Below are positions 47,461-55,999 of a stretch of DNA of 64,000 nucleotides, in pieces. The stretch's first letter is position 1; each line of letters opens with the position of its first letter. Origin of the DNA: Frankiales bacterium (GTDB lineage: Bacteria > Actinomycetota > Actinomycetes > JAFAQI01); the NCBI GenBank assembly GCA_025980325.1, contig JAICXQ010000002.1:37742-101741 (forward strand), in the 5' to 3' direction. The notes beneath the pieces are model-generated. The model was not told the DNA's origin, did no database searches, and saw only the letters and a program-made list of their open reading frames with translations. The position numbers and the translations under genes were made by a program.

Positions 47461-48831
47461 TCAACACAAGTACTGGCTCGACCCGCGGCCGCAGACGCGG
47501 GTGTTGAACGACGCGAAGCCGATGCCTCCATTCGCGCCCTGCACGCCCATGTACACCCGCGGTGCACCGGACGCGTCGCGGCCGAAGAACCCGGACTCCC
47601 ATTTGAACCCGCGCGGACCGGTCAGTCGCAGTGGCGCGACCGACAGCATCCGCCACCGGCCGTGGACGAGCGCGAACGCCGCCGGTCCGGCCGACGTCCC
47701 GCCGATCCCGACGATCTGCTGCGCAGTCGCGCCGAACACCAGCGCCGGGTACGGCTCGTTGCTCGGCGGCGAACCCCAGCCCTGGTACGCCGGCAGCTTC
47801 TGCACGGACACGCCGCCGTCGGTGGACAGCCAGCCCTGACCGTTACCGGAGACGAGGACCGCGGCGGGACGGCCGTGCTGATGCGTGACGTCGACGAACG
47901 GCCACGTGATCGGCGTCGGCAACGACGTCGTCGACCACGTCGCGCCGGCGTCGCTCGATCGCAGCAACACGCCGGCGCCGGTGGCCGAGGTCGTGGCGGT
48001 GAACAGGCTGCGCGGGTTCGTCGGATCGACGGCGACGGCGCCGCTGTAACTACCGAGATCACCGCCGACACCGGCCGGGAGCGCCGTCGGTCCGGACCAG
48101 GTCTGGCCGGCGTTGTCACTGGAGTACAGAGCGGACCCGCCGCTCGCGGCCGCGAACAGGTACACGTGATCCGGGCTGGCCGGTGCGGCCGCGAGCACCT
48201 GAACCGCGCCGGTCGTGGGATTCGCACCGGCCCCCGGCGTCACCTCCGTCCACGTCGTACCGCCATCCGGGCTGGTCAGCACGGCGTACACGCCCTGCGC
48301 CTCGACCGCGACGTACAGCCGCTGCGCCGACGGCGCGACGCGACTGCCCACCTGCGCCGGCGCGATGAACGCCTGGATCTGCGCGTATGGATCGCCACCG
48401 AGGTAATGCAGCGCCGCCGCGTTCGGCGACGTCGTCGACAGCGGCAGCGAGAACACTGCCGACCAGTGGCAGCCGCCGTCGCGCGACGCGAACAGCGACC
48501 TCGTGTCGGAGACGTAGAGGACACCCGGGTTGCCGGCGCCGACGACGAAGCCGGCCTCCTCAGCGGGATCGTCGAACCCCACGCTCTCCGGCGCCTCGAA
48601 CGGAACCGGCGACGGGCCGCCGCTGTCGTCGCTGCTCGGGAACTGCGGTGCGTTGATGAACGTCCAGCGCGCCTGCGTCGTGACGCTCTGGCACGCGGCC
48701 GGCGCGGCCGACCGTGCATGGGCAACCGCCGGTCCGGTGGCGAGTGCGCAGCACGCGGTCACTGCCAACAGTCGCATCGCCCGGCCGCGGTCGCCGCAAC
48801 GCGGACGGTCGAACATCGTCACAGTCGTCAT
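47461..48831 (-). CDS. Exported beta-propeller (BNR/VPS10-like) protein
   Basis: 456 aa, ATG start in an ATGA overlap with the preceding propeller gene. A signal peptide is followed by BNR/Asp-box-like repeats (SRDGGCHW, SPDGGTTWTEV, SSDNAGQTWSG, SSDAGATWS, STDGGVSVQ), giving about six blades. It has a few cysteines, including C-terminal RVCGRGSSQYLC. Such propellers bind glycans or proteins; none of the sialidase catalytic residues is evident. Last gene of the FtsH-AAA operon. Confidence 0.72.
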   Translation of the reverse strand: MTTVTMFDRPRCGDRGRAMRLLAVTACCALATGPAVAHARSAAPAACQSVTTQARWTFINAPQFPSSDDSGGPSPVPFEAPESVGFDDPAEEAGFVVGAGNPGVLYVSDTRSLFASRDGGCHWSAVFSLPLSTTSPNAAALHYLGGDPYAQIQAFIAPAQVGSRVAPSAQRLYVAVEAQGVYAVLTSPDGGTTWTEVTPGAGANPTTGAVQVLAAAPASPDHVYLFAAASGGSALYSSDNAGQTWSGPTALPAGVGGDLGSYSGAVAVDPTNPRSLFTATTSATGAGVLLRSSDAGATWSTTSLPTPITWPFVDVTHQHGRPAAVLVSGNGQGWLSTDGGVSVQKLPAYQGWGSPPSNEPYPALVFGATAQQIVGIGGTSAGPAAFALVHGRWRMLSVAPLRLTGPRGFKWESGFFGRDASGAPRVYMGVQGANGGIGFASFNTRVCGRGSSQYLC

Positions 48832-53933: not shown

Positions 53934-55999
53934 CAGCTCTCCCGCGCGACGGCGACACCCGAGCCGGCGTTGTCGTCGAGGAGGTTGCCGAAGATTTCGA
54001 TGTCGGGTCGTACCGCCGACAGCACCGAATCCAAGTCGGGGCCCTCGACGGTCTCTTCGATTTCGAGTCGCCGGGCGAGGGCGTCGAGCGTCGCCCGGTG
54101 GGTCACCAGCAGGTCGATCGCGTCGCGTCGCGCCTCGTCGGCGATACGGCGCATCTCCGCGTCGACGTCCTGGTGCGTCATCGCGGAGACCTGACCGAGT
54201 GGAACGTCGGAATCGAGGAATCCGTCGACGTCGGGTCCGAGGAAACGCAGCCAACCGAGCTTGTCACTCATGCCGAACCGGGTGACCATGTCGCGCGCGG
54301 TGTTCGTGGCCAGCTCGAGGTCGCGTTCGGAACCCGTCGAGGGTTCCCCGAACAGCAACGTCTCCGCGGCCGCGCCGGCGAGGTGGACGACGATGCGGTT
54401 GTGCAGCTGGCTGCGCGTGAGCATCGCGGCTTCCGCATCGGCCTTCATCGTCGTCGTTCCGAGATTCGCGCCGCGGCCGAGGATCGACACGCGGTGGACT
54501 TCGTCGAACCGGCCGAGCGCGGCAGCGGCAATCGCATGGCCGCTCTCGTGGTACGCGGCACGTTTGCGCTCCTCCGCGTTCAACATCCTGCCTTTGCGCG
54601 CAGTGCCGGACAGCGTCCGCTGGATCGCCTCCTCGACCTCGGCCAGCTCGATCTGCGCCTTCGTTTGCCGCACCGTGAGCAGCGCCGCCTCGTTCACGAC
54701 GTTCGAGAGGTCGGCGCCGGAGAAACCGGGGGTACGGCGGGCGACGTAGCCGAAGTCGATGTCGGCGGCGAACGGCTTTCCGCGCGCGTGCAGTTCGAGG
54801 ATCTTGACCCGGCCGACGAGGTCGGGACGGTCGACGGTCACGTGGCGATCGAAGCGGCCGGGCCGCAGCAGCGCCGGGTCGAGAATGTCCGGCCGGTTGG
54901 TCGCGGCCATCACGACGATGCCGGCCGAGACGTCGAACCCGTCCATCTCGACGAGGATCTGGTTGAGCGTCTGCTCCCGTTCCTCGTTGCCGCCGGCGCC
55001 GCCACCGGAACCGCGCTTGCGTCCCGCGGCGTCGAGCTCGTCGATGAACACGACGGCCGGCGCGACCGCCCGCACCCGGCGGAACAGATCGCGCACCCGC
55101 GCCGCACCAACGCCGACGAGCGACTCGACGAACTCCGCGCCCGCCACGGAGAAGAACGGGACGCCCACCTCGCCGGCGACCGCCTTGGCCAGCAACGTCT
55201 TGCCGCAGCCCGGCGGGCCGATGAGCAGCACGCCCTTCGGCGGCTGCGCGCCGAGCTCCTTGTACCGGTCCGGATCCGCGAGGTAGTCGCGGACTTCCTT
55301 CAGCTCCTCGACCGCCTCGTCCGCGCCGGCGACCTGGGCGAAGGTCACCGGAGTACGACGCCGGCGGGCGAATCGGCCCTTGCCCATCGAGCCGAAGAGC
55401 TCGACCTCACCGACCCCGCCGCCGCCACCCTTGCCGGTCGTGAAGAACAGCACGAACACGTTCGCGAGCATCACCAGTGGGAGCACCACCGTCGCCACGA
55501 TCCGCACGTCGCTCTTGGCGGTCTGCGGATCGACACGCACGGGCGCATTGCTCGCCGTCGCGACCTGCAACAGCGCGGTCGTCGCCGTATCGCTCTTCGG
55601 ATACGCGACCCGGAACGGCACTGCATGCGTCGAGCTCGACGCAGACGTTGGGCAGGCAGGCACCGCGTCACCGCTGGCGCTTGTGCACGTGTAGTAGCCG
55701 TCGATCTGCGCGTCCTGGTCGCGAAACACGACGCTGACCAACCGATGGCCGCTCGCGAGCGCGCTGAACTGGTTGAGCGTCAGCTGACGTCCGGCGGCGT
55801 CGGGCGAAAGGAAGTCGAGGCTCGCCGCGAACAGGCCGGCCAACACCGCCAGCAGCGCCAGCAGTCCGTACGTGCGCCAGCCGACGCTGCGCCGCCGTGC
55901 GATCCGGGCACGCCGCCACTCCCTGAGCGCAACCTTTACCCGGCGGCGGAGTGCGGCCAAGCCGAGCACGACCTGGTCCTTCGGAGAGTGGGCGGCCAT
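53933..55999 (-). CDS. FtsH-like membrane AAA+ metalloprotease
   Basis: 688 aa from ATG 55999, with AGGAGGA upstream. A basic N-terminus (Arg-rich), TM1 (~43-62), a ~110-residue outer domain with a cysteine pair (YTCTSA...PACPT), TM2 (~167-188), an AAA domain with GPPGCGKT (~259) and IDELDA, SRH with [18 protein letters not shown], and a protease domain with HESGH (~484) and third ligand Asp in RDLELAT. The pore loop reads [13 protein letters not shown], Leu in place of the Phe of canonical FtsH. The longer N-terminal cytosolic stretch is atypical. First gene of a coupled four-gene operon. Confidence 0.9.

Follow-up and report, generated by a model that had tools for sequence, protein, structure and literature searches.

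Recurring pairs of a specialised FtsH protease and anchored exported propeller proteins in actinobacteria point to an undescribed machine handling surface proteins

Several actinobacterial classes encode a specialised FtsH protease together with an anchored exported protein, and these recurring FtsH-propeller pairs point to an undescribed machine handling surface proteins; a search of the open-access literature with few terms found no paper describing the pairing. This pair is the older and wider core of the four-gene locus analysed here, of which the tandem AAA+ ATPase is a rare, lineage-specific part. FtsH has been studied as an intracellular quality-control protease; a clade tied to exported receptors would have a dedicated surface role and a readable client tag, and would offer a first handle on the large actinobacterial families of exported sortilin/integrin-like proteins of unassigned function.

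The four-gene locus and its products

The window (the whole stretch of 64,000 nucleotides that was analysed) derives from a 2.7-Mb actinobacterial assembly that is 68% complete, and contains the following features.

47461..48831 (-), exported BNR/sortilin-Vps10 propeller without a membrane anchor, 456 aa (Sortilin-Vps10, 8.2e-12)
48828..51656 (-), exported, C-terminally anchored propeller protein, 942 aa
48915..48971 (-), its C-terminal membrane segment (aa 896-914; hydropathy 1.82), followed by a basic 28-residue end
48993..49001 (-), its tail motif 2, AMT (aa 886-888; from alignments)
49038..49058 (-), its tail motif 1, QPQLALA (aa 867-873; from alignments)
51666..53933 (-), tandem AAA+ ATPase, 755 aa
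53202..53933 (-), its N-domain (aa 1-244), all-helical in the model, without family match
53933..55999 (-), specialised FtsH, 688 aa
54536..54550 (-), its zinc site HESGH (aa 484-488; from alignment)
55112..55132 (-), its pore loop FVESLVG (aa 290-296; from motif table and alignment)
55445..55501 (-), its membrane helix 2 (aa 167-185; from hydropathy)
55817..55873 (-), its membrane helix 1 (aa 43-61; from hydropathy)
56116..57702 (-), STAND-type ATPase, 528 aa as called, with a helix-turn-helix at its N-terminus; putative regulator of the operon

The four genes that the earlier note had joined into one operon are present on the minus strand with the sizes it gave (688, 755, 942 and 456 aa), and the junctions are as it described them: FtsH and the tandem AAA gene meet in TGATG (1-nt overlap at 53933), a 9-nt gap (51657-51665) precedes the anchored protein gene, and ATGA forms a 4-nt overlap between the latter and the BNR propeller gene. 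An AGGAGG-type ribosome site stands at the FtsH start. A promoter and terminator scan gave nothing above shuffled sequences, a scan of this kind being uninformative in a high-GC actinobacterium.

The first product is FtsH-like, as claimed, with two membrane helices, an AAA+ module (Pfam AAA, 7e-42) and an M41 zinc protease (Pfam M41, 7.6e-46; third zinc ligand D560), and it passes the TIGR01241 cut-off (643.5 bits versus 600). Its pore loop, FVE(S/A)LVG in specialised FtsH versus FVEMFVG in housekeeping FtsH (28 and 9 copies in the motif table, respectively), lacks the usual aromatic residue, which is Leu in 28/28 specialised copies. The HExxH site is intact in all specialised FtsH proteins read across the motif, including one that the script left unresolved and that was later seen to be HEIGH. 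Judged from these motifs, the altered pore loop makes an ordinary FtsH less probable, but not membership of the FtsH (M41) family. A quick tree with the pore columns masked placed the specialised FtsH proteins in one clade apart from housekeeping FtsH (support 94), and the housekeeping FtsH of the source genome is a separate gene beside folE/folP/folK. A DNA pattern based on the loop picked out true members from four families of this class and from several further families within the phylum. In one sub-branch of specialised FtsH (L115, L116, L117 and L153), a gene for a subtilisin-like protease comes after that of the anchored partner. At another locus (L177 6315-8075, G524:C46), a specialised FtsH and two anchored propellers have downstream of them a further FtsH-like gene, whose pore loop is FVEVYVG.

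The tandem AAA protein contains two Pfam AAA domains (1.4e-72), and both modules look active from their motifs, with Walker A sequences GPPGTGKN in D1 and GPPGTGKT in D2 and both Walker B sites retained. Its N-domain of ~240 residues, which has no Pfam match and no PDB match below 0.04, is predicted with fair confidence to be a helical bundle: AlphaFold2 gives long helices whose pLDDT is about 80-94 for the greater part of aa 11-210, in a model of the tandem protein with mean pLDDT 78 and a pTM of 0.40 that makes domain packing unreliable. The label 'CDC48-type' in the earlier note therefore suits the AAA part and not the N-domain. The best PDB matches are Cdc48/p97, which likewise have two AAA+ modules, whereas the all-helical N-domain of the model is without family match and the protein reaches only 315 bits against the TIGR01243 cut-off of 802.65; it was rejected as a Cdc48 member. 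It was also rejected as a Cpa protein (Cpa structure 5e7p, only 211 bits; no psd or pssA at the locus). The tandem AAA gene adjoins FtsH and propellers, in contrast to cpa, which adjoins psd-pssA (PMC6017811). The psd-pssA-cpa operon is typical of Cpa branches 1 and 2 and lacking in branch 3 (PMC6017811), so that the absence of psd and pssA beside FtsH-tandem AAA at all loci read is not decisive alone. Another protein with two AAA matches, encoded on G000:C9 (L155 5801-7912), was considered as a Cpa candidate and discarded as a membrane AAA+ protein with Walker B sequence FIEEID and an insertion between sites.

The 942-aa protein comprises, from its N-terminus, a signal region, a half resembling sortilin/BNR, a second domain, a P/Q-rich stalk and a C-terminal membrane segment. 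The earlier description as a membrane-anchored double propeller holds for the anchor and, through a sub-threshold sortilin/BNR match, for the first half; the second propeller did not find backing, aa 440-800 being without a Pfam match. An AlphaFold2 model from a three-row alignment (pLDDT 31) was discarded. The 456-aa product was confirmed as an exported BNR propeller (Sortilin-Vps10, 45.1 bits versus a cut-off of 33). Recognition of glycans, also suggested previously, would rest only on weak BNR similarity, and nothing points to cargo export by an export machine.

A STAND-HTH gene absent from the earlier note lies 116 bp upstream of FtsH on the same strand (Pfam AAA_16, 6.4e-9, and a weak HTH); its true start may be nearer 57618. 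A regulator profile found 3, 1 and 7 copies in G000, G002 and G061, matching the copy numbers of the tandem AAA gene; 17 other genomes, the majority with specialised FtsH alone, gave none. Ten of the 11 regulator copies share a contig with an FtsH-tandem AAA pair; the exception is that of G002, a fragmented assembly, where the two lie on different contigs. In one region of G061 (L108 4167-19825, G061:C87), a single STAND regulator separates a pair of FtsH-tandem AAA operons arranged back to back, and the propellers are of kelch type instead of PQQ type. Within the window, an exported PQQ-type propeller (58489-60174 (+); PQQ_2, 1.5e-12) is divergent from the STAND gene; as a candidate for the PQQ propeller that sister operons contain, it gave no match at the sensitivity used.

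Recurrence across the phylum

The compared genomes are nearly all metagenome assemblies with approximate gene starts. The AAA profile found two further FtsH-tandem AAA pairs in the source genome, ordered FtsH, tandem AAA, PQQ-like propeller, anchored protein and one to three secreted BNR propellers. With one and seven pairs in two related MAGs, the total is 11 (three of them in the source genome), and 11/11 are accompanied by an anchored tail protein encoded on their own strand. The view of the earlier note that the genes make up a system is supported: they are a conserved set linking AAA+ machines inside the cell to propellers outside it, and the observation that the note had named as counting against it, the four genes being rarely together elsewhere, was not borne out. 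Gene-order searches found the set of FtsH, tandem AAA and anchored propeller in 11 loci of three genomes in two families and the pair of FtsH and anchored receptor in several classes; because it recurs in 11 loci, the arrangement is not due to chance. Five of the 11 loci came from scanning 85,000 species genomes and belong to the MAGs Frankiaceae bacterium BP_191 and BP_195; one of the five, like the wider FtsH search, revealed operons arranged back to back. In 395 class and 357 phylum genomes, of each of which the two or three best candidates were scored, no true orthologue of tandem AAA was found elsewhere, the match in G507 (427 bits) covering the AAA part only.

FtsH and tandem AAA co-evolve (mirror-tree r=0.92 over 11 pairs; 0/10,000 permutations as high). 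Between the two closest orthologous operons, dN/dS was 0.14 for the AAA gene, 0.18 for FtsH, 0.25 for the PQQ propeller and 0.30 for part of the anchored protein; all four genes are therefore under purifying selection, which is looser for the outer parts.

An anchored neighbour was found beside specialised FtsH at 33/37 loci versus 26/107 in the background under relaxed rules (p=3e-12) and at 20/36 versus 19/222 under strict rules (p=4e-10), both counts being given because the strict topology filter missed known anchored proteins, and the exact figures being descriptive because the filters were set after examples had been seen. Under the relaxed rule no such neighbour was found at 4/37 loci, at one of them only through an in-frame stop.

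Within the class, 12/12 genomes with a vWA-tail protein also have specialised FtsH, 382 have neither, and one (G022) has FtsH alone, with no vWA match but two other anchored proteins beside FtsH. Relatives in the same family (G004, G005, G010 and G011) lack both specialised FtsH and the vWA-tail protein. In other classes, where loci were chosen by the FtsH pore loop alone, the gene after FtsH encodes sortilin and integrin vWA domains and the same tail in G395 (E=7e-9 with a profile built without G395), an anchored NHL propeller in G524 and an anchored protein of 1630 aa in G576, and the gene just before FtsH in G602 encodes sortilin/BNR and vWA domains with a membrane anchor. G734 has only a weak upstream anchored candidate, and no anchored neighbour was found at the FtsH loci of G431 and G644.

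Co-transcription of envelope genes with a stress protease, their products making no contact, would by itself yield coupled junctions such as those of the window. This explanation is highly improbable given that genome co-occurrence includes unlinked tail genes, that FtsH and tandem AAA co-evolve, and that the pairing recurs independently in other classes.

The order glnA, specialised FtsH, anchored vWA protein, glnE (glnA and glnE being named by eye from sequence) is syntenic across two families, in L106 (G061), L110 (G031), L113 (G044) and L114 (G021). In the family of the source genome (L055 and L058), a vWA tail protein is also near glnE.

Anchored partners and their shared C-terminal tail

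The usual partner of specialised FtsH combines a sortilin/BNR propeller with an integrin-type vWA domain, and the anchored proteins of several copies contain a vWA-like domain of the integrin-beta type. A profile of this domain found such proteins in 12/395 class genomes, with a maximum of at least five in a single genome, and many of the vWA-tail genes are directly preceded by an FtsH gene without tandem AAA. One anchored BNR-vWA partner (L012 4825-7590, G000:C72) is broken by an in-frame TAG, its counterparts in L057 and L061 being intact. Small exported proteins of ~210 aa with DCPPY-like ends form a row after the FtsH-vWA pair in L061 (5825-9778, G002:C310), L012 and L057. Elsewhere (L009 496-1911, G000:C53), a ferric-reductase-like membrane oxidoreductase follows the secreted propellers.

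Most partners end in a P/N/Q-rich stalk, a QxQLAxA-like motif, AM(S/T), a membrane segment of small residues (Ala/Gly-rich) and an arginine-bearing basic end, although several lack one or both motifs. Motif 1 was found in 24/34 tails versus 8.2 after shuffling and motif 2 in 21/34 versus 3.4, with regular expressions that, like the neighbour filters, were chosen after seeing examples. The membrane segments of the tails have a mean hydropathy of 1.60, versus 2.55 for the helices of FtsH itself. In nearly all tails the basic cytosolic end is 5 to 28 residues long (median 14.5 aa), two lengths of 84 being cases in which the script chose the wrong segment. Comparison of 12 tails with NCBIfam put no CTERM model over its cut-off, the best weak matches being scattered CTERM and LPXTG models.

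Seven genomes encode 7, 14, 6, 4, 4, 2 and 1 tail proteins, several of which stand alone, and in most of these genomes they exceed the specialised FtsH genes (for instance, 5-6 to 1 in G044 and 4 to 2 in G021). Since they tend to outnumber the protease, the tail proteins fit the role of clients.

Proposed function and comparison with known systems

The reading that we prefer, with a probability of roughly 0.42, is a dedicated module for membrane proteolysis or remodelling in which FtsH would recognise receptors by the shared tail, the tandem AAA protein and the regulator being lineage-specific additions. A specialised FtsH hexamer would sit in the membrane beside exported receptor-like proteins (a propeller, often with an integrin-type vWA domain) and, given the conserved tail, may recognise them through it; pulling the weakly hydrophobic tail segment from the membrane, from inside, it would cause the receptor to be turned over, released or re-set. 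In the source lineage, the tandem AAA+ protein may act as a cytosolic unfoldase with the same FtsH, further secreted propellers would serve as ligands or partners on the outside, and the operon is presumably switched on by the STAND-HTH protein.

Dislocation of this kind has precedents. The mitochondrial m-AAA protease dislocates alanine-rich segments, while leucine-rich ones resist, and dislocation of Ccp1 precedes its cleavage by a second protease (PMC5438985). The pulling force comes from an aromatic pore motif, and mutating the aromatic residue impairs translocation by Yme1 (PMC5438985). By analogy, loss of the aromatic residue may make pulling weaker or more selective, nearer to dislocation than to wholesale degradation. 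The missing aromatic residue itself counts against the preferred reading, as do the anchored-neighbour exceptions (4/37 loci) together with the partners that lack tail motifs, and the short cytosolic ends leave little for FtsH to grip.

Those short ends suit a partner better than a substrate, and the main rival reading, possible if somewhat unlikely, is an adaptor: the anchored propeller/vWA protein would be a stable subunit, catching further envelope proteins and passing them to FtsH. Tight gene pairing, a conserved membrane-adjacent tail and the presence of vWA and propeller domains, both of them binding modules, favour it, and known adaptors provide parallels (Mgr1/Mgr3 for yeast Yme1; HflKC and prohibitins for FtsH and m-AAA). 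Against it stands the excess of tail proteins over specialised FtsH in most of the genomes tested, many of them encoded away from FtsH. FtsH, m-AAA and i-AAA resemble the present protease in having AAA+ and M41 zinc protease modules, two membrane helices and a membrane partner with outer domains. The present protease differs in its pore loop, FVE(S/A)LVG, in its clade, which is separate from housekeeping FtsH, and in its partner, a propeller/vWA protein with a CTERM-like tail instead of a band-7 protein.

Like the CTERM tags (MYXO-CTERM/myxosortase, GlyGly-CTERM/rhombosortase and LPXTG/sortase), the tail comprises a motif, a membrane segment and an arginine cluster, the three-part plan of the MYXO-CTERM sorting tag (PMC11980579), and in both cases a few enzymes would serve several proteins per genome. 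However, no known model reached its cut-off, and the linked protease is an ATP-dependent FtsH. It is doubtful, though conceivable, that the tail represents a new class of C-terminal sorting signal with the altered-pore FtsH as its ATP-driven handler, releasing or transferring receptors rather than destroying them; if true, an AAA+ protease would here be operating a CTERM system, with a second unfoldase added in one lineage.

The locus also shares AAA+ proteins, divergent vWA domains, propellers and a multi-gene actinobacterial layout with the MoxR-vWA ternary systems of the FtsH and beta-propeller types (Kaur et al. 2020, PMC7159879). The FtsH component of those systems has two ATPase copies, the first dead, whereas the FtsH of the window has one AAA, and in the tandem protein Walker A and B are intact in both modules; here, moreover, an M41 protease is present, and the vWA and propeller domains belong to exported proteins with an anchor. 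No MoxR gene was found among the genes read at the loci (bpMoxR, 24.5 bits on D2 versus a cut-off of 27). A signalling or conflict module in this style, with propellers that sense a neighbour or invader and AAA+ parts that trigger the response, would account for the AAA+, vWA and propeller themes held in common (PMC7159879), for the STAND protein upstream and for several diverged copies per genome with differing propellers. It is nevertheless quite unlikely: neither a MoxR gene nor an effector domain turned up in the operons read, the outer parts are exported and not cytosolic, and the glnA-FtsH-receptor-glnE locus, in contrast to a defence island, keeps its position from one family to the other. 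A known anti-phage defence system was rejected, PADLOC giving only generic AAA similarity to IetA/TRIP13 and nothing for the propellers.

In photosystem II repair, the BNR propeller Ycf48 and FtsH belong to one membrane quality-control pathway. The present bacterium is not photosynthetic, and its propellers differ in that they are tethered on the outer face and encoded together with FtsH; weak PSII_BNR similarity is found among them.
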